Source: Sulfuriferula sp. AH1
GTDB lineage: Bacteria; Pseudomonadota; Gammaproteobacteria; Burkholderiales; Sulfuriferulaceae
Direction of reading: 5' to 3'
Assembly: GCF_002162035.1 (NCBI RefSeq)
Contig: NZ_CP021138.1
Coordinates: forward strand, 1,302,001 to 1,366,000
Length of the DNA stretch: 64,000 bases
The translations under genes and the position numbers were made by a program. Of this stretch, positions 3,063 through 28,745 are shown in pieces (positions within the stretch are counted from its first letter, which is position 1; each line of letters begins with the position of its first letter). The notes beneath the pieces were generated by a model. The model was not told the origin of the DNA and searched no databases. It saw only the letters and a list, made by a program, of their open reading frames with translations.

Positions 3063-3081
3063 GGGCGTCTAAAAGTAGAGC

Positions 3082-3207
3082 TTAAGCGGCCAAGGCCAGC
3101 TTCTGTATTGGTGTGATGCCACCAATGGCCATGTTAGGTCGCTCGTGATTGTAAGTCCATGGCCAGTTTGTGGCAAAGTTCTGCACCCCATCAATTGAAT
3201 CAAAATT
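3082..3207 (-). pseudogene. IS3-family transposase C-terminal remnant
   Basis: On the minus strand an open stretch of about 42 codons reads into TYNHERPNMAIGGITPIQKL and ends LALAA-stop. This is the characteristic C-terminus of IS3-family OrfB (DDE) transposases. An in-frame stop (TAG, complement of 3208-3210) precedes it and the catalytic core is absent, so only the gene end remains. It lies between the metal permease and the GGDEF-EAL gene and marks an old insertion or deletion. Confidence 0.8.
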
Positions 3208-3277
3208 CTACTTCTAAATACCTTTATTTACTGGAGGGGGATTACCATGATTTTTGTGGCCGATTTGGCAGGATTTT

Positions 3278-5464
3278 TCAGATGCTTGCGTTGTTATCGC
3301 AGGGTAGTTGGCATAATTTGTTTTGCAGCAGGATTCCCATATCGGGAGCCGGCACTGGACGGCTGAAATAGTATCCCTGAATCTCGTCGCAATGATGCTG
3401 TTGCAGAAACTCGTAATTCGCCTGTGTTTCCACGCCTTCCGCAACGACTTTTAGTCCCAGTTCATGGCCCAGCGTGATGATGGCGCGGACAATGGCGGCA
3501 TCGTCCGGATTGATGTCGATTTCCTGTACAAAACTTTTGTCTATCTTCAGGTGGTTCACCGGGAAGCGCTTCAGGTAGCTCAGGCTGGAATAGCCTGTGC
3601 CAAAATCATCTATCGCTAATGCTACTCCAAGCGATTTCAGCGCGGTGATGGCAACATTGATGCGTTCCGCGTCCTGCATGAAGAAGGATTCGGTGAGCTC
3701 CAGTTCCAGGTAGCTGGCGTCCAGGCCGGATTGCACCAGTGCGTTGGTGACCGCATCGATCAGGCCGGGTTGACGAAACTGGATAGGGGAGAGGTTTACC
3801 GATACGCTGATCGGAGGCAGCCCCGCATCGTGCCAGGCCCGATTCTGTCGACATGCCTCGTGCAATATCCATTGACCGATAGGAACGATCAGGCCGGTTT
3901 CTTCCGCAATGGGGATGAAGCTGTCGGGGGGGATCAGCCCTTTTTCCGGATGCTGCCAGCGAATAAGTGCCTCGGCGCCGATGACTCTGCCGTTGGCGAC
4001 ATCAACGCGCGGCTGATAATAGACGCGGAACTCGTCGCGTTCCACTGCACGGCGCAGGTCATTGGCCAATTCGAGACGTTCGGTCACGGCCTGATTCAAT
4101 TCCGGCGTATAGAAATGGAAGGTGTTTCTGCCGGCGTTCTTCGCTTCGTACATGGCCGCGTCGGCACATTGCAGCAGCGTATCGGCTCTATCGCCATCAC
4201 AGGGGAAGCAGCTGATGCCTATGCTGCAGCTCAGCGAATATTCGTGCTGTTCGTCCATCCAGGGTTGGGAAATGACTTCCAGCAAGCGCCGAATGATATG
4301 AATGACGCCGGGTTCGTTTGTCTGTTCGGTCAATACCAGCACGAATTCATCTCCGCCCAGACGGGCGACCGTATCCTGGTTGCGGATGCAAGCGCTCAGG
4401 CGCGATGATATTTCGAGCAGCAATCGGTCGCCGACATGATGACCGAGACTGTCGTTGATGAGCTTGAAATGGTCAAGATCCACGAATACCACCGCAACTT
4501 TCCGCGATTCGCGTTTGGCGCGGCTGATGGCGCGTTCTATCCTGTCCATGAGCAGCATGCGGTTGGGCAAGCCGGTGAGAATGTCATGGCTGGCCTGGTA
4601 TTGCAGCTCTTCTTCGTGATATTTGCGTTCAGTGATATCGACGACGGTGCCTTCGTAGAACTGCACGGCGCCGTTGGAGTCCATTACCGCCCGTGCATTT
4701 TCCGAGATCCAGATGATGCTGCCGTCCTGGCGATATACCTGGGATTCGAAATTGCGCACACTGCCATGCTCGAACATGAGCCGCACGAATTCGTCGCGAC
4801 GCGACTGATTGACGTACAGTTGATGCCGAATATCCTGCAATGCGGAGATCATGGCTTCAGGGTTGGGGTAGTTGTAAATGCGTGCCAATGCTGGGTTGGC
4901 ATCGATATAGCGCCCGTTGGGGGTGGTCTGGAAGATGCCTTCGGTCGCATGTTCGAAGATGCTGCGGTAACGTCTTAATGCTTCATGCAAGGCTTTATTG
5001 GTGCTGATGCGATCGGTAATGTCCTGGATAAAGCCTTCGATGGCGATGCGCTGGCCGTGCTGATCGAACACGCCTACTCCGCGTTCCGATACCCAGCGTA
5101 TGGAACCGTCGGCGCGAATGATGCGATATTCGGTGTCATAACTGTTCCGCTCCTCCAAAGCAGCATGGATGCTCGCATTCACGCGCTCCAGATCGTCGGG
5201 ATGGGTGATCTGTCCGTATGAAATGCGGCTATCGAAAATCAGCTCATCGGGACGGTATCCGGTCAGCTTCAGACAGCCTTCGCTGACAAACTCCATCGTT
5301 CCCAATTCATCGATATTGCAGCGATAAATCATGCCTACCAGATCGCTGGTGATGGTATTGATCAGACAGGTCGGGTCCAGTCCTCCTGCCGGTTTTTGCG
5401 ACGCACGGGGAGGGGTGCTTTTGACCACATTCAGAAAGGGTATTGTCATGGGTGGCCTATTCAT
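3278..5464 (-). CDS. PAS-PAS-GGDEF-EAL cyclic-di-GMP signalling protein
   Basis: A cytosolic sensor-effector with two PAS/PAC domains (each ending in an IT[DE]R motif), a GGDEF domain with an intact RLGGDEF signature and an EAL domain with intact GAEALIRW and [10 protein letters not shown]. Both diguanylate cyclase and phosphodiesterase activities are therefore possible; the family often uses one. No membrane segment is seen. An upstream start at 5530 would place 22 residues inside the preceding hydrolase gene, so I prefer 5464 (MNRPPM) or 5449 (MTIPFL). It directly follows the metallo-hydrolase of the guanidine-riboswitch operon with overlap or no gap, so it may be its last gene. Signal ligand unknown. 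Confidence 0.9.
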
Positions 5465-6242
5465 GAAATTCGGGGAACTGACGCAACGTTCTCCAGAAGT
5501 TGATATCGTGATTGGGCCAGAGGATCGCATTTTCCTCTGCCGCCAGTTTCTTGAGTTTGCGTATGCTGGCTATGGCCTGGTCTTCCTGTTCTTGCCAGCA
5601 CAGGCCCGGCGGAATCTCCTCCGCAATGTTTTCCGCCAGATCGGCGGCGTCACCGCACAGAATGACGGGCGGTCCTTTCGGCAATTCGATCCACAGCGAC
5701 ATGTGGCCTGCGGTATGGCCGGGCGAGGATACGGCACGTACACCCGGTGCCACGTCGTATTCTCCCTGCATCATTTTCCATGGATACTGGCCATTGAAAT
5801 CATCGGGGAAATAGGCAATATCCTGGCCGGATAATGCTGCATCCAGCTCGTCTTGCTGCACATGCACTTCGGTGCCGCAGACGTCGCACAATCCACCGGC
5901 ATGATCGAAGTGCAAATGGCCGATGAATACGACATCCACATCAGCCGGCGTCAGGCCCATGCGTGCCAGATGGGTGGGCAGGCGTTGCGATTCATCCATT
6001 TCCGGCGGACCGAAAGGGAATATTTCCGGATCGTAGTAATGCTGCTGCCGGGCCGGGTCTGCAATCTTGTTGTAATCGCAGCCGACGTCATACAGGATCC
6101 GGCCGTTTGCCGTTTCGATGAGATAAGCGAGAATAGGCGCCTCGATGATCTGTCCCTGGCCACGATGGCGAGTCGATAGCGACTTGTCGTAATGGTGGGT
6201 GGCCGTCAGCAGCGGCCACAGTTTTTTAACTTGCGTCATCAT
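5457..6242 (-). CDS. Metallo-beta-lactamase-fold hydrolase (N-acyl homoserine lactonase-like)
   Basis: 261 residues with the dinuclear zinc signature HLHFDHAGG (about 108-116), a second histidine in SPGHTAGH (about 170-177), the bridging Asp in CGDAAD and a C-terminal WPNHD. Overall layout resembles AHL lactonases of the AttM/AiiA group, but such enzymes open several lactone and cyclic ester or amide rings. Its start overlaps the end of the isochorismatase-family gene by 17 bases, placing it in the riboswitch-headed operon. In that context a role in opening a ring or ester intermediate, rather than quorum quenching, is plausible but only inferred. Confidence 0.85.
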
Positions 6243-6923
6243 CGCGATTCTCCACAGAGGATGACTTCATCATTTCGAGCATCGCCCGGGTGCTGACGAC
6301 TTTGCCGAATATGCCGCCTTCGACGGCGATCATTGCCATGCTGGCGTGATGCAGCTCCGGATAGGCCGAGCCGCACGCATCGCTGACGGTCATGCACTCG
6401 TAGCCCCTGTCCACGGCCTCGCGCAAGGTGGACTGCACGCATACTTCAGTGGTAACGCCAGTCAGGATGAGCTGCCGGATATCCTGGCTGCGCAAGATGA
6501 TTTCCAGATCGGTCTGGTGGAATGCCCATAGCCGGGCTTATCGATGACAGGTTCGCCTGCATGCGGAGCCAGCTCATCGATGATGTCATGTCCGTATTCG
6601 CCGCGGACAAGAAGCCTGCCCATCGGGCCGGATGAACCGACAGGAGCGGCGGCATAGTCGCTGCGCAACCTTTTGGCTGGCGTGCAATCCAGCAGATCGC
6701 TGCGATGGCCTTCACGTGTATGGATGACCAGCATCGCCTGTTCGCGGGCTGCGCCCAGCAGTTTCTGAATCTGCGGGATGGGTTTGCGCAGATTTTCAAT
6801 GTCGAGCCCCGCTGTTTCGGCGTAGCCCCCGGTGGCACAAAAATCGCGCTGCATGTCGATGACGAGCAATGCAGCGCGATTTAGCTTGGGGGAAGGGTGA
6901 GGGTGTGCAAGATTCATGATCAC
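6226..6923 (-). pseudogene. Isochorismatase-family cysteine amidohydrolase, split by a 1-base frameshift
   Basis: Two minus-strand frames together make one isochorismatase-superfamily protein of about 232 residues. The upstream part (GTG 6923) carries the catalytic Asp in LLVIDMQRDF and the Lys in VIDKPGYG. The downstream part carries the nucleophile Cys in TGVTTEVCVQST. The frame changes at the run CCC 6525-6527 (GGG on the coding strand): adding one base restores GYGAFHQTDLEII, the usual family sequence. All three catalytic residues survive, so this may be an assembly error, a recent loss, or slippage. Relatives include N-carbamoylsarcosine amidase, biuret hydrolase and ureidoacrylate hydrolase, all releasing ammonia from carbamoyl groups. 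It overlaps creatininase by 4 bases. Confidence 0.8.
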
Positions 6924-7690
6924 GCTCGTTCGAATTCCGTCATCACGGCTTTTGCGATGCAGGCTGCCAATTCGGTGGCCATGATTTCGCCTTTGACCGC
7001 ATCGGCACCGCGCGCCGAAGATAGCACACCCGATGGCGGTACCCAGTCGGGATCGGCGGGATAAATATCGTAAGCCGGAAAATTCGCCGGGCCGTCATCC
7101 GGAATCAGGTCGAGCCGCACCAGTTCCGGGTGGTAATGCAGCATCAGCGAGGTTTCGATGACGGCAGCATGCTCCAGCGCATAGCCGGGAAAGCCGTCGG
7201 GGAACACCGCGCGCAAAGTGGCTGCAGTCAGGAAATCCCAGTATTCCATGCGCATGACTTGTATTTTGGCGCCGGGCTGGAGGTCGCGCATCGCCAGATC
7301 GATGCCTTCTGTGATGAACCATTGGTTCTCGTAATGGCCGTTGACGACGACCAGCTTTTCCACGCCATGACGGGCGAATTCGCGGACCGTATCGCGTACC
7401 AGGCCAATCAATGTTTGTGCGTCGACTGAAGTAGTGCCGCAGAAATGCTGGCCGCCACCGCATTTGGGTTGCGATTTGTAACCATAAGACAGGGCAGGTG
7501 CAACGATGCCGTCTATCTGTTCGGCAGCGCTGGCTGCAACGGCGGCCGACAGCAGGGCGTCGGTGCCTAGCGGCAGGTGCGGGCCGTGCTGTTCAAGCGC
7601 GCCAACTGGCAGAAAAATGGGTGGATTGGCTGTGGCGATACGGTCGCGGTAAGCAACCCAGCTCATTGTATTCATGTTAACGGTATTCAC
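6920..7690 (-). CDS. Creatininase-family amidohydrolase
   Basis: 256 residues with the creatininase-family signatures: PVGALEQHGPHLPLGTDA near residue 27 (Glu, His and Asp metal ligands), VNGHYENQ near 114 and EHAAVIETS near 173. The family opens cyclic or amide bonds (creatinine to creatine, also formamide groups in riboflavin and mycofactocin routes) using two metals. The GTG start at 7690 is preferred because AAGGA lies about 5 bases upstream. It overlaps the transporter gene by 14 bases and the isochorismatase gene by 4. Beside a guanidine riboswitch, a substrate with a cyclic guanidine or ureido group is a reasonable guess. The family assignment is firm. Confidence 0.88.
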   Translation of the reverse strand: MNTVNMNTMSWVAYRDRIATANPPIFLPVGALEQHGPHLPLGTDALLSAAVAASAAEQIDGIVAPALSYGYKSQPKCGGGQHFCGTTSVDAQTLIGLVRDTVREFARHGVEKLVVVNGHYENQWFITEGIDLAMRDLQPGAKIQVMRMEYWDFLTAATLRAVFPDGFPGYALEHAAVIETSLMLHYHPELVRLDLIPDDGPANFPAYDIYPADPDWVPPSGVLSSARGADAVKGEIMATELAACIAKAVMTEFERA

Positions 7691-8588
7691 GGTTTTCCTT
7701 ATGAGATTCGTCAGCGCTAGCTGTCGCTTCGATTACTGCAGCTGAAGCAATAAGCGTGCCGCCCATCCATTCACGCGGTAAAAGCTGTTCGCCGCCGACT
7801 ATCACCGCAGAGATCACTGCAGCCAGCAGTTCCACTATCAGTATGATGCCGGCACGGCCTGTTTCCAGATGAGTAACGCCGTATTGCGTGGTAAAGGTGG
7901 CCAGAATCAGCCAGCCGAAGCCGAAGGCTGTCAGCGCAATCAGCAAATTCGGCGACCAGTCGGGCTGTGCGGCGCTTTGCTGCCAGACCATCAGCGCGGA
8001 TATGACACCGCAGCCGATGAATACGGCGACGGTTTTGGAAATCATGGGGATGGCCTGGGCGGCGCGCGTGACCAGATTGTTGCCGGCAAAAGCGAGTCCG
8101 GCGGAAAGTGCGAGCAGATCGGCTACCGATAACGGTGCGGTAAATGCCGCGGCACCGCCGATGACCAGGAATGCACCAAAAATGGATATGAATACGGCCA
8201 GCATGCGGCGCCGGGTAACCCTCTCTTGCAGAAACAGTCTGCCGCCGATCACCGACCATACTGGCGCCAGATAAAACAGCAGCATGACGCGCACCACGTC
8301 GCCAGTCGTCAACGCCCGCACAAAAGACGCGTTGGCCCAGCCGCCCAAAAGTGCGAGCAACAGCAGCAAGCTGATTTGTCCCTGCCAGAGATGGCGTTCC
8401 CGCAGCAGCAGGGGCAGGCCGAGCAGTCCTACCAGCCCATAGCTGGCGAGGGAGATCAGCGGGCCGGATAATCCGGCAGTACCGAATTGCTTGAGCGGCC
8501 ACCAGGTAACGCCCCACATGGCGGCGGAAAAGGTCAATACAGTGAGCGGCAGCCAGGTTTGGGGGATGGTGCGAGCCGGATGGCTCAT
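7677..8588 (-). CDS. EamA/DMT-family transporter
   Basis: A 303-residue inner-membrane protein with ten predicted helices in two EamA repeats (SAAMWGVTWWPLKQFG at the first helix). This superfamily moves small metabolites, usually outward. The ATG at 8588 overlaps the TGA of the upstream dehydrogenase (ATGA), which decides the start over the longer frame beginning at 8630. SMR exporters under guanidine riboswitches carry guanidinium out; EamA proteins are larger relatives in the same drug/metabolite superfamily. Export of guanidinium or a pathway product is therefore a fair inference, not shown by sequence. Confidence 0.85.
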   Translation of the reverse strand: MSHPARTIPQTWLPLTVLTFSAAMWGVTWWPLKQFGTAGLSGPLISLASYGLVGLLGLPLLLRERHLWQGQISLLLLLALLGGWANASFVRALTTGDVVRVMLLFYLAPVWSVIGGRLFLQERVTRRRMLAVFISIFGAFLVIGGAAAFTAPLSVADLLALSAGLAFAGNNLVTRAAQAIPMISKTVAVFIGCGVISALMVWQQSAAQPDWSPNLLIALTAFGFGWLILATFTTQYGVTHLETGRAGIILIVELLAAVISAVIVGGEQLLPREWMGGTLIASAAVIEATASADESHKENREYR

Positions 8589-9334
8589 GGCATGATCGAT
8601 CCGCCGTTGGGGCCGAGCACCTGGCCGCAATAAAAACGGGCGTAATCGGATATCAGGAAAAGTACCGTGGCGGCAATCTCGTCAGGCTCCGCAAAGCGTT
8701 GGTAAGGAATGTCCTTTTCCTTCGCTATCCATTCCATCGACATGGATTCAGTTGACAGCATAGCGGTGTTCACCGGTCCCGGGGCTACCGCATTGATGCG
8801 GATGGCCGGCGCGAATTCACGCGCCAGCGAGCGGGTGAGACCGATAACGCCCGCCTTGGCTGCACAATATGACGCGTACTGTTCGCGACCCAGATATCCC
8901 AGATCGGAGCTGATATTGACGATGATGCCAGTGCCCTGTTTCGCCATGCGGCCGAGTACGGCCTGACTGCATAGAAACACCGATTTGAGGTCGCTGTTCA
9001 GCACGTGATCCCATTCGAGCTCAGTGATGTCGAGGAACGGTTTCTCCGCAATTACGCCGGCGTTATTCACCAGAATATCGATTTGATTGCAGCTTTCGAC
9101 CATCTGCCGTACCTGATGCGCGTTGGTCACGTCGGCTTCGATGGCGGCAGCCCATCCGCCTGCAGCGGCAATGGCTTGTACTACCTGGTCGGCTTCCCGC
9201 GCGCGGTTGAGGTGATTGACGATGACCCGTGCTCCGGCCTGTCCGAGCATGATGGCAATGGCTCGTCCGATGCCGGTGGCGGCACCGGTTACGATAGCGG
9301 TTTTGTTGTGTAAGCTGATATTCATGATGGTCAA
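8585..9334 (-). CDS. Short-chain dehydrogenase/reductase (second SDR of operon)
   Basis: 249 residues, classical SDR: cofactor motif TGAATGIG (about 16-23), NNAG (about 90-93), catalytic Ser in VNISSDLG and YASYCAAKAG with the YxxxK pair, then PGPVNTAM. The Asn at the position after the second strand (VNHLNRA) hints at NADP use. NAD(P)-dependent oxidation or reduction of an alcohol/carbonyl is the family reaction. The start overlaps the previous SDR stop by 4 bases. Two adjacent but dissimilar SDRs suggest two successive oxidations of a hydroxylated intermediate. Confidence 0.88.
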   Translation of the reverse strand: MTIMNISLHNKTAIVTGAATGIGRAIAIMLGQAGARVIVNHLNRAREADQVVQAIAAAGGWAAAIEADVTNAHQVRQMVESCNQIDILVNNAGVIAEKPFLDITELEWDHVLNSDLKSVFLCSQAVLGRMAKQGTGIIVNISSDLGYLGREQYASYCAAKAGVIGLTRSLAREFAPAIRINAVAPGPVNTAMLSTESMSMEWIAKEKDIPYQRFAEPDEIAATVLFLISDYARFYCGQVLGPNGGSIMP

Positions 9335-10116
9335 TGCATGACTTCTCCATTGCTGACGACGATGGTCTGTCCGGTAATCGCGAGTGCATGGGGGGAGGCG
9401 AGGAACAGGAAAGTGCCGGCGATATCGACCGGATTGAGCAGTTCGGGTATGGCTTGCTGCGCCAGGATTTCGTCTATCATTTGCGACGCTGACTTGCCTT
9501 CGGTTTCCGCCATGGCACGCATGGAGCGCATGGCGGCATCAGTGGCAACCCAGCCCGGACACACTGCATTCACTCTGATTTTATGTCTACCCAATTCCCA
9601 TGCCAGCGAGCGGGTGAGGCCGATAACCGCATGTTTGCTGGTGACATAGGCGGAAAAGTCCGCCACGCCGCTCAGCCCCCAGATCGAAGACTGATTGATG
9701 ACGCTGCCGGATTCATGAATCAGCGGCGTTAGTGCCCGGGTCAGCAGGTACATGCTGCTGACGTTGTTGTGCAACAGGTCTTGCCAGCGCTGTTCGGCAT
9801 CGGGCGCAGCATCGCCAAGCGGCGTCGGATATTCGATGCCGGCATTGTTGATCAATGCATGGATGCTTATCTGCCGCCGTTCCAGATCATCTGCCAGCGC
9901 ATGGATCTGCCCGGCATCGGTCAGATTCAGGGCGTGCGAGGTGATGTCTGCCCTGCGCGCCAGCCGCCGAGCGATGGCTGTCAGCGCTTCTGGATTGCGG
10001 TCGATCAGCTCCAGACTGGCGCCGTGCGCGGCGAATGCCTCGGCAATACCCAGCCCTATGCCGCTGGCGGCACCGCTGATGACGATAGTGCGGCCTGCAA
10101 AATCAAGAAAGGGCAT
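9331..10116 (-). CDS. Short-chain dehydrogenase/reductase (first SDR of operon)
   Basis: 261 residues, classical SDR: SGAASGIG glycine motif (about 14-21), an Asp at the end of the second strand (ELIDRN) suggesting NAD(H), NNAG, catalytic Ser in NQSSIWG and YVTSKHA with YxxxK, then CPGWVATDAAM. It starts 3 bases after the desaturase-like gene ends and overlaps the next SDR by 4 bases. It likely oxidises an alcohol made by the neighbouring di-iron enzyme; that link is inferred from gene order only. Confidence 0.88.
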   Translation of the reverse strand: MPFLDFAGRTIVISGAASGIGLGIAEAFAAHGASLELIDRNPEALTAIARRLARRADITSHALNLTDAGQIHALADDLERRQISIHALINNAGIEYPTPLGDAAPDAEQRWQDLLHNNVSSMYLLTRALTPLIHESGSVINQSSIWGLSGVADFSAYVTSKHAVIGLTRSLAWELGRHKIRVNAVCPGWVATDAAMRSMRAMAETEGKSASQMIDEILAQQAIPELLNPVDIAGTFLFLASPHALAITGQTIVVSNGEVMH

Positions 10117-10119
10117 GGT

Positions 10120-11139
10120 TCATACCGCCGTCAGGAATGACACACCGACAGCGCCGTAGAATGCGGACGGGTCGAGTTGGCCAGTCGGCAATTCGGGCAC
10201 ATCGCCGTAGTCGTCGGACAGAATGCGTTTGACCCGGTAACGATGATGGGCGGCCAGTAGCGTGCTCATCGGCAGCACTTGTGGGTATGCGTCTGCAAAC
10301 AGCTTTTGATGCAATTGCGGCAACCGGTACCAGGGCTCTATCGGACGTTCGTGATGGGCATTGTGATAGGAGAAGTTCAACAGCAGCAGATTCCACAGCG
10401 GATGTGCCACGGAAACCAGATTGGAATAGGTATTGCGCTGCTCGTAAGCGTGATCGCGCACCTTGTCTTCGGGAATAGTTCCGCCCTGCAGGATGGCGAA
10501 GGCGTCATAGGTATGCTGATACGCATCGGCAAAACGCAGTACATGCAACATGATCAAATAGGCGACGGCGTAACCGAGCAATCCGACAGGAGCAAGCCAG
10601 CCCAGCGCAGCAAAGACTGCTGTGCGCACAGCGATAATGGCCAGAACACGGCCGCGGTTTTGTTTCTTCTCCGTAGCGATGAAGGGCTGCAGTATCACGT
10701 AGCCGTGCATGATGAGTTCCACTGCGGGGATGTAAGCCCATTCCAGTGCGAGCACCAGCCGGCGAAACCAGGCAGGCGACTTGAGCAGAAATTCCTTGAA
10801 GTCGAAGGTGATGACGTCGGCGCGATCGACGTGGTGACGCACATGCTTGCGCCGCAGGTCGTTGAACGTAGCGTAGCAGGAGCCGTTAATCCAGGTCATC
10901 AAGGTGCCCCAGCGGCCATTGTCAGCCGCGTCCTTGAATATGGAGTTATGAGCAAACTCGTGAAAGAAATAGCCGGACAGTATCAAGGCGTGCGCAACCA
11001 GCAGGGTGCCGATGATCTGGCCCGGCAAAGGTGCCAGTGCGAGCAGAATGACGCCGCCAAGATAAGCGCCTAATGTATAGGATAAGGCTATTACGTTCGG
11101 CAAGACACCGTCGGCGTAGCGAAATTTTTGTTGCAGCAT
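10120..11139 (-). CDS. Membrane fatty-acid-desaturase-family di-iron protein
   Basis: 339 residues with several membrane helices and the three histidine boxes of the membrane desaturase/hydroxylase superfamily: H60-E-F-A-H64, H99-x-x-H102-H103 and H259-x-x-H262-H263. These bind two irons and activate oxygen; the superfamily includes desaturases, alkane hydroxylases and other C- or N-oxygenating enzymes. The ATG at 11139 is chosen because AAGGAG lies 6 bases upstream. It is the second gene after the guanidine-I riboswitch, 53 bases behind the binding protein. No lipid gene is nearby, so oxidation of an alkyl group on a guanidino compound is more likely than lipid desaturation, but this is inference. 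Confidence 0.85.
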   Translation of the reverse strand: MLQQKFRYADGVLPNVIALSYTLGAYLGGVILLALAPLPGQIIGTLLVAHALILSGYFFHEFAHNSIFKDAADNGRWGTLMTWINGSCYATFNDLRRKHVRHHVDRADVITFDFKEFLLKSPAWFRRLVLALEWAYIPAVELIMHGYVILQPFIATEKKQNRGRVLAIIAVRTAVFAALGWLAPVGLLGYAVAYLIMLHVLRFADAYQHTYDAFAILQGGTIPEDKVRDHAYEQRNTYSNLVSVAHPLWNLLLLNFSYHNAHHERPIEPWYRLPQLHQKLFADAYPQVLPMSTLLAAHHRYRVKRILSDDYGDVPELPTGQLDPSAFYGAVGVSFLTAV

Positions 11140-11192
11140 GACATTCTCCTTGAGCAAGGTCGCCCCACGGGGGCGGGCGCGACCTGCCAAAC

Positions 11193-12200
11193 TTACTTGA
11201 CCAGCGATTTGACGAACTGGCTGTCGATCGTGGTTTCAGTTGCAGGAATGGTCGTGATCTGACCCTTGTTCTTGAGGATGCTGCTGATGACTTCGCCGCT
11301 GGCATAGTAGGAAGTGGTTTCCGCTGATTTGACGAAAGCCTTGGGCATTTCCGCCAGCGGGATGTTATACACGCCGCTCATCTGCTCCATGACTTCCTTG
11401 CCGCTGATACCCATGGCTTTGCCGATGATCCTGGCCGATTCGTCAGGGTGCGCTTTCATGTAAGCCATGCCGTCCACATACGCTTCGATCAGGCCTTTGA
11501 TTTCCTTGGGGTGAGCCTGGATGTATTTCTGGTCGAATACCAGCACGTCAGCGATCAGACCCGGTGCATTCCTGGAAGAGAACACCACATGGAATTTCTT
11601 GCCGCCGCCCTGGCTCAGAATCTGCGACAGGCTCGGTTCATACGTTACGCCGACAGGGATACCGCCTGAGGCCATCGCGGCAGGCACGGCTTCCGGCGTC
11701 ATCGGCACGGCTTCGTAGTCTTTTTCAGAGAGGCCGTTCTTTTTCATCGCGTAGGACAGCAGGAAATCGGATGGGGACAAAGGATTGAAACCGATTTTCT
11801 TGCCTTTGAAGTCGGTGACCCTGGTAATGGCGGTTGTGGCCACGATCGCGTCACCGCCGTTCGAATAGTCGATTGGCATGACTACCTTATGTGCCAGTCC
11901 TTTGGCGTCCGATCCGATCACCTGATCGTAAGTCAGCATGCCGCCGTCCACGGAGTGGCTGGCGATCGCAGTCGGGATAAGCGCAGGGTCGGTAAACATT
12001 TGCAAGGTGACCTTGAGGTCATACTTTTTGTAGAAGTCCTTGGCATCGGCAACGAAGAACGGGCCATAGCCTATCCATACGACGGTACCGATTTTCATTG
12101 AGGTGGCAGCGTGTGCAGCGACAGGATTGATGCTTGCCGCAGCAAGCATCATTGAAGCAAGGCAGATTTTCTTGAACGATTTGGCGGGTGCTATTGACAT
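11193..12200 (-). CDS. NitT/TauT-family ABC substrate-binding protein under riboswitch control
   Basis: 335 residues with a signal peptide ending at AAHA near residue 31 and the SsuA/NrtA-like fold: IGTVVWIGYGPFFVA near 37, GGMLTYDQVIG near 87 and GKKIGFNPLSPSDF near 132. Proteins of this family are commonly found under guanidine-I riboswitches and serve uptake of guanidine or related compounds. Its cognate permease and ATPase genes are not in this operon or anywhere in the window in NitT form, so it is an orphan binding protein. AGGAG about 8 bases upstream supports the ATG at 12200. It is the first gene after the riboswitch. Confidence 0.88.
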   Translation of the reverse strand: MSIAPAKSFKKICLASMMLAAASINPVAAHAATSMKIGTVVWIGYGPFFVADAKDFYKKYDLKVTLQMFTDPALIPTAIASHSVDGGMLTYDQVIGSDAKGLAHKVVMPIDYSNGGDAIVATTAITRVTDFKGKKIGFNPLSPSDFLLSYAMKKNGLSEKDYEAVPMTPEAVPAAMASGGIPVGVTYEPSLSQILSQGGGKKFHVVFSSRNAPGLIADVLVFDQKYIQAHPKEIKGLIEAYVDGMAYMKAHPDESARIIGKAMGISGKEVMEQMSGVYNIPLAEMPKAFVKSAETTSYYASGEVISSILKNKGQITTIPATETTIDSQFVKSLVK

Positions 12201-12216
12201 GACTGGCTCCTGTAAA

Positions 12217-12254
12217 GGTTAAAGGAAACGGGAAAGCAACTGCGCTCTCTCCCG
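12217..12254 (-). terminator. Terminator-like hairpin forming the riboswitch expression platform
   Basis: On the minus strand CGGGAGAG (complement of 12247-12254) can pair with CTTTCCCG (complement of 12229-12236), followed by TTTCCTTT. The left arm is the last conserved part of the guanidine-I aptamer, so ligand binding and this stem exclude each other. That gives an ON switch: guanidine keeps the terminator from forming. The U tract is interrupted by CC, so termination may be incomplete. Confidence 0.6.
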
Positions 12255-12345
12255 GGCTTTTATCCCTCCGTGGAACCTCACCTTGAGGCCGGATCGCTCT
12301 CGGACCAGACATTCCATGTAACTGGAACCGGAACCCTAGCAATCC
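12248..12345 (-). promoter_or_regulatory. Guanidine-I (ykkC) riboswitch aptamer
   Basis: Reading the minus strand, the conserved blocks appear in the right order and spacing: CTAGGGTTCCG, then CTGGTCCGAGAG, then CACGGAGGGATAAAAGCCCG and GGGAGA. These are the hallmark bases of the ykkC class that binds guanidinium; both the ACGG and the GGGATAAAAGCCC segments match the guanidine subtype rather than the ppGpp/PRPP subtypes as I remember them. It ends about 50 bases before the start codon of the ABC binding protein. The next operon diverges, so this RNA serves only the minus-strand genes. Confidence 0.93.
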
Positions 12346-12577
12346 TGATACAGACATTTGTGTGAAAGCGCTGCCAGTGCAGCGGCAATCCCGTCCTGCC
12401 TTCTTTTACGCAAAGCTTGTGCCAGTTACCGGAAATGGACGAATGAATCAAATTAAAATCATTTGATTCAATGGGTTGATAATTTTTCTGGAAGGTGTGC
12501 GTCTGTATTCCGTGTCTGTTTATTCATGCATTATCCATCGTGAAAATGATCGATAAGGGTGCATGCTAACCCTGCCT

Positions 12578-12769: not shown

Positions 12770-13585
12770 ATGAAGGTGTTTAAGTCTAAAGAAAGCGTTA
12801 CCTCGGCTGCAGTTATCGGTGCATTAGGTTGCATGTTCGTATCCTTGCCTGCTGCAGCTGACGTGACCGGCCACCTTGACGTCGTGTCCAAATATGTCCT
12901 GCGCGGTATCACCACCACTTATGGTTCCAGCGGCATTCCAGGCGGCAACGCGAATGGCGATGCACCGGAGAGCGAAGGTCCTGCATTGCAAGGCGGTCTG
13001 GATTATGTGAGCGACAGCGGCTTTTATGCCGGCTGGTGGTTCTCGACTCTGGGTTACTCCTACAAGTCGTTTAACGGTCAGGGCACTTCCATGGAGCATG
13101 ACCTGTATGCCGGATACAAAGGCAAGATCGGTGCAGTCGGTTATCAGATCGGCCTGACCAATTACCACTACGTGCCAAGCTCCAATGCCACCGGATATGA
13201 AACCATGCTGGGTCTGAGTTACAACCAGTTCGGTTTGAATGCGCAAACCTTGCTGAACGACGTTTCCTACGGTAACAAAGGCGACACTTACTTTACGGCG
13301 ACCTATAACGACAGCGTCCATTTCGATGCGTTGCCGAAGGATCTCAATGTAAGCGCAGTCATCGGCTATTACACCTATAAAAAGACTGAAGCAACCAGTA
13401 CTGATTTATATGTGCCTTACGCAGCCAATCAGGTTAACTCGGCATTCCGTCACGCGACGCTGGGTGTCAGCTATCCGTTCCTGAAGAATGTATCAGGTGG
13501 TCTTAGCTATATCTTCGGTGGCGAAAACCGTTACGGTATCAAGCAGGATAACCAGCTGGTCGGCAACCTGAGCTACACCTTCTAA
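12770..13585 (+). CDS. Outer-membrane porin, TorF/FmdC-like
   Basis: 271 residues with a signal peptide (cleavage near LPAAA-DVTG), an opening strand VTGHLDVVSKYVLRGIT typical of the TorF putative-porin family, alternating amphipathic beta strands and a terminal Phe (NLSYTF) as in outer-membrane barrels. In Methylophilus an amide- and urea-inducible porin, FmdC, belongs to the same gene system, so this likely lets amides or urea through the outer membrane. AGGGAG stands 8 bases before the ATG, and a sigma54 promoter drives it. fmdA follows after a 25-base hairpin. Confidence 0.82.
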   Translation: MKVFKSKESVTSAAVIGALGCMFVSLPAAADVTGHLDVVSKYVLRGITTTYGSSGIPGGNANGDAPESEGPALQGGLDYVSDSGFYAGWWFSTLGYSYKSFNGQGTSMEHDLYAGYKGKIGAVGYQIGLTNYHYVPSSNATGYETMLGLSYNQFGLNAQTLLNDVSYGNKGDTYFTATYNDSVHFDALPKDLNVSAVIGYYTYKKTEATSTDLYVPYAANQVNSAFRHATLGVSYPFLKNVSGGLSYIFGGENRYGIKQDNQLVGNLSYTF

Positions 13586-27042: not shown

Positions 27043-28745
27043 GTCTGAGAATCGGGCGCGCTGCCTATGCCGAGATGTATGGCCCAACCGTTGGCGACAG
27101 GCTGCGTCTGGCTGATACCGAGCTGTGGATAGAGGTAGAGAAGGATTTCACCCTCTACGGCGAAGAAGTGAAATTCGGCGGTGGCAAGGTTATCCGCGAT
27201 GGCATGGGACAGAGCCAGCGTACTTACGCCCATGTGGTCGATACCGTGATTACCAATGCGCTGATCGTGGATCACTGGGGTATCGTCAAGGCTGATATCG
27301 GCATTAAATCCGGCCGTATCGTCGGCATCGGCAAGGCAGGCAATCCGGACATACAGTCCGGCGTCGACATCGTTATCGGCGCCAGCACCGAGATCATCGC
27401 CGGGGAAGGCTTGATCGTCACGGCGGGCGGCATCGATTCGCACATCCATTTCATCTGCCCGCAGCAAATCGAGGAAGCGCTGATGTCGGGGATAACCACC
27501 ATGCTCGGCGGCGGCACCGGCCCTGCCACGGGTACCAACGCGACAACTTGCACCTCGGGGCCGTGGTACATGCATCGCATGTTGCAGGCGGCGGATAGTT
27601 TCCCGATGAACCTGGGATTTCTCGGCAAGGGCAATGCCAGCCTGCCGGAGCCGCTGCGCGAACAGGTCGCCGCCGGGGCGATCGGGCTGAAACTGCATGA
27701 AGACTGGGGCACTACACCGGCAGCGATCGATAACTGTCTGGCAGTCGCCGACGAAATGGATGTGCAGGTCGCCATCCACACCGACACCCTGAACGAATCC
27801 GGCTTTGTCGAAACTACGCTGGCGGCGTTCAAGGGCCGGGCGATCCACACCTATCACACCGAGGGCGCAGGCGGCGGCCACGCGCCCGACATCATCAAGG
27901 CCTGCGGCGAGCTAAACGTGCTGCCGTCGTCCACCAACCCGACGCGCCCGTACACGGTCAACACTATAGACGAGCATCTGGATATGCTGATGGTGTGTCA
28001 TCATCTCGACCCCAATATCGCTGAAGACGTGGCTTTTGCCGAGTCGCGTATCCGCCGCGAGACCATTGCCGCCGAAGACATCCTGCACGACCTCGGCGCT
28101 TTCAGCATGATCTCCAGCGATTCGCAGGCGATGGGGCGGGTGGGCGAAGTCATCATGCGTACCTGGCAAACCGCGCACAAGATGAAAGTGCAGCGTGGCG
28201 CCCTGCCGGAAGACCACGCCAAGAAGGACAACCAGCGGGTGAAGCGCTACATTGCCAAATACACGATCAATCCGGCGATCACCCACGGTATCGCGCATGA
28301 AGTCGGCTCGGTGGAAGTGGGCAAGCTGGCCGATCTGGTGCTGTGGCGTCCGGCGTTCTTCGGTGTGAAGCCGTCGCTGATTATCAAGGGCGGCATGATT
28401 GCGGCAGCGGCGATGGGCGATCCCAATGCCTCGATCCCGACGCCCCAGCCGGTGCATTATCGGCAGATGTTCGGTGCCTACGGCAAGGCCTGTACTGCGA
28501 CCTCGGTGACTTTTGTGTCCGGGCTGGCCGCGCGCAGCGATCTGGCCGCGCAACTGGGGCTGGACAAACGCCTGGTGGCAGTGAGCGGCACGCGCACGGT
28601 GACCAAGCGGGATATGGTGCATAACGCGCTAATGCCGAAAATCGAAGTCGATCCCGAGACCTATGAAGTCAGGGCGGACGGTGAATTGCTCACCTGCGAA
28701 CCCGCCGACCTGTTGCCGATGGCGCAACGCTATTTCCTGTTCTGA
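27039..28745 (+). CDS. ureC: Urease alpha (catalytic) subunit
   Basis: 568 residues, the usual length. Catalytic nickel site is complete: [14 protein letters not shown] (two His ligands), [11 protein letters not shown] (Lys to be carbamylated), [13 protein letters not shown] and the mobile-flap region [14 protein letters not shown] with the catalytic histidines. Works in the cytosol as (UreABC)3 with nickel inserted by UreDEFG. Ten bases precede ureE. Confidence 0.98.

Follow-up and report, generated by a model that had tools for sequence, protein, structure and literature searches.

The riboswitch and its operon

This work concerns a putative guanidine-responsive operon in a stretch of 64,000 nucleotides of the Sulfuriferula sp. 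AH1 genome (C1:1302001-1366000; 2.9 Mb in all), hereafter called the window. A preliminary description, made from the sequence alone, had placed a guanidine-I aptamer at 12248-12345 and had named a covariance-model search and a comparison with other genomes as ways to check it. According to our Rfam search, the aptamer is real: the leader at 12350-12247 (minus strand) matches the Guanidine-I covariance model RF00442 over its full length (model positions 1-107) with 87.6 bits and an E-value of 2.5e-14, compared to a gathering score of 63. The riboswitch and the operon genes all lie on the same strand, in the order given here from the binding protein to the metallo-hydrolase.

12247..12350, minus strand: Guanidine-I riboswitch aptamer (RF00442; aligned with six other matches)
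12232..12249, minus strand: terminator-like hairpin overlapping the 3' end of the aptamer (weak; 1 found versus 0.6 expected in shuffles)
11193..12200, minus strand: ATP-binding cassette (ABC) substrate-binding protein of the NMT1/SsuA type (PF09084, 95.1 bits)
10120..11139, minus strand: membrane FA_desaturase-family (di-iron) enzyme, proposed (methyl)guanidine hydroxylase (PF00487, 118.8 bits)
9331..10116, minus strand: short-chain dehydrogenase (SDR) 1 (family profile match)
8585..9334, minus strand: SDR2 (family profile match)
7677..8630, minus strand: EamA-family transporter (PF00892, 69.7 bits)
6920..7690, minus strand: creatininase-family amidohydrolase with altered pocket residues (PF02633, 196.9 bits; TIGR04448, 364.5 bits)
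6462..6923, minus strand: isochorismatase/biuret-hydrolase-like protein, first piece of 153 amino acids ending in a frameshift (family profile match)
6226..6530 (limits approximate), minus strand: isochorismatase-like protein, second piece in another frame (the intact gene of a sister locus is nearest to biuret hydrolase)
5457..6242, minus strand: metallo-beta-lactamase-fold hydrolase, AiiA/pyridoxolactonase-like (HLHFDH motif)
3278..5530, minus strand: PAS-GGDEF-EAL protein at the operon end (Pfam; homologue at the same place in the sister locus)
3063..3240, minus strand: end of a transposase gene (rve integrase core)

All the gene families named in the preliminary description were confirmed by Pfam or NCBIfam scores, except that the isochorismatase gene proved to be frameshifted near 6530. 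The gene at 3278-5530, inside the range it gave, encodes no pathway enzyme: Pfam reads there a PAS-GGDEF-EAL signalling protein, probably outside the pathway. Guanidine binding and expression control by 12247-12350 are predicted from the covariance match. The hairpin is a possible candidate for the expression platform, the piece that carries it folding with a z-score of -1.38 (weak). Another ligand class of ykkC leaders was set aside, since the Guanidine-I model fits the full length and the relatives sit with guanidine genes. A divergent gene for a TorF-type porin (12770-13585, plus strand) adjoins the operon.

The membrane protein encoded by the second gene exceeds the PF00487 threshold of 29.7 bits by a wide margin. 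The ATG at 11139 was taken as its start, although the open reading frame (ORF) extends further, to a TTG. Nine histidines (H60, H64, H99, H102, H103, H209, H259, H262 and H263) are invariant in 32 sequences. A Foldseek search of its AF2 model (predicted local distance difference test, pLDDT, 85.7) against the PDB gave no match at E 0.001; the best was a chain of a chloroplast motor complex (E 0.0025) and AlkB came third (E 0.17). A sequence search of the PDB with the same protein returned nothing relevant. In two loci the oxygenase gene is duplicated, the downstream copy encoding a protein 47% (L043:12541-13500) or 42% (L056, from 6256) identical to that of the window.

Conservation of the riboswitch and the gene set among relatives

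A protein-only search of genome contigs confirmed at least 491 relatives of the PF00487 protein, and the loci of the best 80, which are close relatives of each other, were compared. A Guanidine-I match lies on the same strand and at most 3.5 kb upstream of the desaturase-family gene in 73/80 of them (median distance 1233 bases). The comparison proposed in the preliminary description thus shows the gene set together with the riboswitch elsewhere, and leaves its reading standing. Among the seven loci without an upstream match, five are L054, L082, L103, L107 and L116, and two (L102 and L117) are cut off by the contig start. The model used for this count was built from seven matches of this analysis; Rfam's own model, run on 25 of the 80 loci (a non-random choice of short loci, the seven misses and three others), gave 18 positive and 7 negative calls, identical to ours.

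At the genome level, PF00487 relatives occur in 22 of 369 genomes of the class, and 12 genomes, including that of the window, hold a strong one (E below 1e-20). Guanidine-I or Guanidine-II was found within the fetched stretch in seven of these 12 (the window's own genome, G107, G263, G127, G241, G299 and G119). The other five are G335, G192, G213, G167 and G048, the last of which is a contig end; G335 has a cgdA-like gene and transporter genes nearby. Of 339 genomes of the class, 27 have Guanidine-I itself, as counted with filters that miss some of the weak matches. It occurs in 6/12 genomes with a strong relative versus 21/327 without (Fisher p 1e-4; 6e-4 without the window's own genome), on the assumption that all 12 lie within the 339. 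Membership in PF00487 would also fit a conventional lipid desaturase that stands behind the riboswitch by chance. This is hardly credible in view of both the 73 riboswitch-bearing loci and the genome-level association.

A homologue of the binding protein is encoded upstream of the desaturase-family gene in 78/80 relatives. Genes after the oxygenase were counted in the 54 loci that extend 6.5 kb or more downstream, the 26 shorter ones being left out; proteins under a length limit were left out of the counts of conserved residues. The most constant of the counted genes encodes a protein resembling the lyase MgdL (50/54; one more, in L043, lies just beyond the 8.5 kb limit and was counted as lacking). 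It is followed by those for creatininase-like (47), amidase-like (46), SDR2 (45), metallo-hydrolase (44), SDR1 (41) and EamA (41) proteins; permease and ATPase genes follow the oxygenase in 26/54 loci. Matches to carboxylase, allophanate hydrolase or Cgd-like genes fall within 43/80 loci, the sole such match in L059 being of 30% identity.

The EamA gene raises the question of whether the operon serves detoxification only, removing or exporting guanidine and toxic guanidines with no nutritional role. Exporters are indeed often under the control of guanidine riboswitches, according to the excerpted text of PMC12186494. We consider this very improbable: the position of the binding-protein gene before the oxygenase and the permease and ATPase genes after it point to import and not export, and the linkage to nitrogen-releasing genes also speaks against it. 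Among the matches listed in open-access PMC literature, we found no report of a guanidine riboswitch with a desaturase, creatininase, isochorismatase or SDR, nor of methylguanidine with a desaturase.

A predicted demethylation pathway feeding guanidine carboxylase

The genome contains two Guanidine-I riboswitches. The second (89 bits, C1:1292329) lies about 10 kb before the window start and heads a guanidine carboxylase operon (L027, C1:1284000-1303000). This operon encodes a permease, an ATPase, UAAP1 and UAAP2, the carboxylase and allophanate hydrolase; it also contains a Guanidine-II riboswitch (38.2 bits). UAAP1 (367.9 bits) and UAAP2 (345.4 bits) are DUF1989 proteins, which we take to be CgdA and CgdB. 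Both score above the NCBIfam cut-offs, as do the 1200-amino-acid carboxylase (TIGR02712, 1956.7 bits) and allophanate hydrolase (TIGR02713, 820.9 bits), all of them outside the window. The preliminary description had stated that the known guanidine routes are absent; this was an artefact of the window edge. A lack of such a route is rejected, the carboxylase operon being complete under its own riboswitches.

Because this operon lies so close under its own riboswitches, it is more likely that the window operon is an upstream branch that feeds the carboxylase route. The carboxylase genes are in the same genome, under Guanidine-I and -II riboswitches, and in the neighbourhood in the 43 relatives mentioned above, but the window operon has none of the carboxylase, CgdAB and allophanate hydrolase enzymes and would act before them. 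Since no homologue of the window binding protein was found in the L027 stretch, the two operons likely form one regulon with a shared transporter.

The gene that we call MgdL-like is present in 58/80 relatives; in many it lies at the downstream end of the operon, mostly directly after the metallo-hydrolase gene. An Asp-x-Arg motif, a Trp and a Glu are invariant in 58/58 aligned sequences (57 relatives and L156; one short piece was left out). The AlphaFold model (pLDDT 94.5) is strand-rich and of barrel type, and its sole PDB match at E 0.001 is yeast YLR301w (template modelling score 0.49), with lipocalin-like proteins next. In L156 (genome G171) a homologue stands directly after a 2-oxoglutarate (2-OG)/Fe(II) dioxygenase gene (PF14226, PF03171), behind a carboxylase gene. 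That operon holds a Guanidine-II riboswitch, and on the same strand a Guanidine-I precedes the fetched stretch by about 1.8 kb.

The excerpted text of PMC12508155 describes, for Vreelandella boliviensis, a Guanidine-I/II-regulated mgdH-mgdL extension of the carboxylase route that demethylates methylguanidine (arrangement in the legend to its Fig. 1). There, MgdL is reported to be a beta barrel in which D49 and R51 are catalytic and the substrate is surrounded by Trp, Glu and Asp. Its specificity for N-(hydroxymethyl)guanidine is reported to be narrow; the spontaneous decay of this hemiaminal has a half-life of over 1 h (PMC12508155). The arrangement in L156 is that published for mgdH-mgdL, and the motif and barrel fold of the MgdL-like protein agree with the description of MgdL. 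Guanidine riboswitch control, linkage to the carboxylase and an oxygenase gene are further features in common. The systems differ in that the oxygenase here is a membrane PF00487 protein and not a 2-OG dioxygenase. In addition, the operon is a separate one that also encodes a binding protein of its own, two SDRs and creatininase-, amidase- and lactonase-like proteins, and the window genome is without an MgdL-like gene.

Because an MgdL-like gene is present in the operons of most relatives while its homologue elsewhere follows a 2-OG dioxygenase in a guanidine carboxylase operon, as published for MgdH-MgdL, the PF00487 enzyme probably takes the place of the dioxygenase MgdH. No homologue of the L156 dioxygenase was found at E 1e-6 in the 92 loci L027-L118 or in the window, the query being this protein and not the published MgdH. 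A plasmid search for the MgdL-like gene returned one 26% match, in Novosphingobium. A gene for a xylose-isomerase-like TIM-barrel protein accompanies the oxygenase in seven of the 91 loci L028-L118 (L030, L032, L033, L034, L036, L103 and L116). It never occurs with an MgdL-like gene (7 loci with the TIM barrel, 60 with the MgdL-like gene and 24 with neither, short loci being among the 24). This distribution is at most suggestive of a possible alternative lyase in place of MgdL.

We consider it moderately probable that the window operon specifies a guanidine-induced upper pathway that demethylates methylated guanidines and feeds the neighbouring carboxylase operon. An ABC importer with its own binding protein would take up the methylated guanidine, and the membrane di-iron enzyme would hydroxylate the N-methyl carbon to a hemiaminal, N-(hydroxymethyl)guanidine in the case of methylguanidine. 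The hemiaminal would break down to guanidine and formaldehyde, with the help of the MgdL-like protein in genomes that encode it or else of some other enzyme. Carboxylase, CgdAB and allophanate hydrolase would then convert guanidine to ammonia, and free guanidine would induce both operons through their Guanidine-I riboswitches. Of the path outlined in the preliminary description, guanidine-induced import and di-iron oxidation of an alkyl group to free guanidine thus keep conditional support from the riboswitch and the MgdL-like gene among the relatives, while its organism without a guanidine-degrading route does not stand.

Several points weigh against the demethylation pathway. The activities of the operon enzymes are predictions from sequence, PF00487 enzymes are best known for lipid substrates, and no electron-donor gene was recognised in the window operon. 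An MgdL-like gene was not found in the window or in its genome at E 0.001 (7 of 23 first-look candidates scored), and the gene of the relatives looks like that of the MgdL lyase by neighbourhood, motif and modelled fold, compared with a published description. In two further cases an MgdL-like gene is present although neither oxygenase was found in the stretch fetched (L154:8673-9341 in G084 and L155:7678-8343 in G213; the PF00487 gene of G213 is on another contig than its MgdL-like gene). The 80 loci are the best of at least 491 relatives and are not independent. No guanidine riboswitch was seen in the fetched stretch of L033, L034, L035, L037 and L038, and six of the 12 genomes with a strong relative show no Guanidine-I. 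Finally, methylguanidine needs none of the SDR, creatininase and amidase proteins, so that their genes would serve something else.

The missing MgdL-like gene may be related to decay of the window copy. In the sister locus L039 the isochorismatase-like gene is intact (228 amino acids) and the MgdL-like gene follows the GGDEF/EAL gene, whereas the window has a transposase end at that place. Within window 3063..3240, 134 bases match the end of an ORF elsewhere in the genome (C1:973686-973819) at 90% identity; this ORF matches PF00665, and we presume it to be an IS3 transposase. A search of the window for a remnant of the MgdL-like gene gave no convincing match (the best, with E 0.004, lies a long way from the operon, at 57.8 kb). 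Because the MgdL-like gene is missing and the amidase-like gene is frameshifted, the window operon is probably partly decayed, or else relies on slow spontaneous decay of the hemiaminal.

The creatininase/SDR module and other possible substrates

The creatininase-like protein of the window scores above the TIGR04448 cut-off of 235 and is 49% identical to the creatininase of Pseudomonas putida (1j2t). The residues to which we assign metal-binding and catalytic roles are kept, but S78 and W174, presumably pocket residues of creatininase, are replaced in the operon family by Cys (62/63) and by Phe or Tyr (63/63), respectively. The Ala at position 175 of the operon family is uninformative, since G272, with a true creatinase close by, has it too. 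A creatinase search of the window's own genome gave only a 24% partial match. A classical route from creatinine to creatine was therefore rejected there, whereas G272 has a creatinase near its creatininase-like gene. A distant creatininase-family gene is found with a type III glutamine-synthetase-like gene in three loci (L034:10766-12947, L036:8465-10622 and L154:13633-15757), near guanidine or oxygenase genes.

In the 54 loci, SDR and creatininase-like genes are both present in 46, the creatininase-like gene alone in 1, SDR alone in 0 and neither in 7. These genes, perhaps with the amidase-like gene, probably form a separable second module for one or more larger precursors; that creatinine is among them is speculative. 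G155 (L157:5551-11994) encodes in order a binding protein, permease, ATPase, creatininase-like, SDR1-like and SDR2-like proteins and a 3-guanidinopropionase-like ureohydrolase (467 bits to 3nip); no oxygenase and no guanidine riboswitch were found in the fetched stretch. G266 (L159:159-5703) has the same order up to SDR2, where the contig ends, and no guanidine riboswitch was seen. The module thus probably acts independently on some guanidino compound.

The nearest solved relative of the intact L039 amidase-like protein is biuret hydrolase (226 bits). Unlike the biuret/guanylurea hydrolases among the isochorismatases, which we compared through biuret hydrolase only, this protein misses the NF050097 (biuret amidohydrolase) cut-off of 370 with 263 bits, as does the first piece of the frameshifted window copy (151.2). 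In an alignment of 53 members of the metallo-hydrolase family, HLHFDH is conserved at 97% or more. It shares the fold family and the HxHxDH motif with AiiA lactonases and 4-pyridoxolactonase, but stays well under their cut-offs (NF045699, AiiA, 150.1 of 375; 4-pyridoxolactonase, 133.4 of 325). SDR1 has some similarity to pyridoxal 4-dehydrogenase (146.4 bits, cut-off 325).

These enzymes could suggest that the whole operon degrades creatinine oxidatively, which would extend the demethylation pathway and not oppose it. The di-iron enzyme would form creatol, an SDR would oxidise it, the creatininase-like protein would open the oxidised ring, and the biuret-hydrolase-like protein would release methylguanidine and an acid. 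The di-iron enzyme and MgdL would then yield guanidine. The steps after creatol are hypothetical. Consistent with it are the changed pocket beside kept catalytic residues, the joint occurrence of creatininase-like and SDR genes, the kinship of the amidase-like protein to biuret hydrolase and the unlikely classical creatine route in this genome. The conversion of creatinine through creatol to methylguanidine is moreover known non-enzymatic chemistry, although creatone is not found in the excerpted text of the source (PMC3775425). Against it, the G155 module stands beside a 3-guanidinopropionase-like gene and lacks one of the desaturase family, a hint that its substrate is a different one. The shared Ala at position 175 says nothing either way. 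We hold this explanation to be unlikely. A complete enzymatic and riboswitch-controlled route from creatinine through creatol, methylguanidine and guanidine to ammonia, in which one di-iron enzyme would hydroxylate both the creatinine ring and methylguanidine, appears likewise unlikely.

Other N-alkylguanidines, such as guanidino alcohols or acids, might instead be hydroxylated beside the guanidino nitrogen; the carbon part would then be processed by the SDRs and the lactonase-like protein. The SDR and lactonase-like genes would fit a hemiacetal or lactone step, the resemblances of SDR1 and the metallo-hydrolase to the two pyridoxal-degrading enzymes (below cut-off) point the same way, and in G155 the SDR/creatininase module is accompanied by a guanidino-acid hydrolase. 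This possibility is nonetheless doubtful, given the narrow specificity reported for MgdL and the constancy of the MgdL-like gene downstream of the oxygenase.

If demethylation of methylated guanidines is indeed the function, a membrane di-iron oxygenase would be added to guanidine metabolism. A route from creatinine to ammonia, if true, would provide a biological source for methylguanidine, and its oxygenase would be, to our knowledge, the first PF00487 enzyme that acts on a small guanidine. The natural origin of guanidine and methylguanidine is an open question in the excerpted texts of PMC12186494 and PMC12508155. It becomes testable because the conserved riboswitch-controlled set occurs in genera of which strains are in culture, such as Stutzerimonas, Thiomonas, Paraburkholderia and Acidithiobacillus.

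Beyond the operon, window 13731-57947 holds a dense set of one-carbon nitrogen genes. Formamidase, a urea-transporter binding protein, aliphatic amidase, urease alpha, formyl-THF (tetrahydrofolate) deformylase and type III glutamine synthetase are above cut-off or threshold, and sarcosine-oxidase-like genes are below threshold. The set resembles an N-methylglutamate pathway. An Rfam match to 5_ureB_sRNA (27192-27477, minus strand, 129.7 bits) lies antisense to the urease alpha gene and may reflect conserved coding sequence only.

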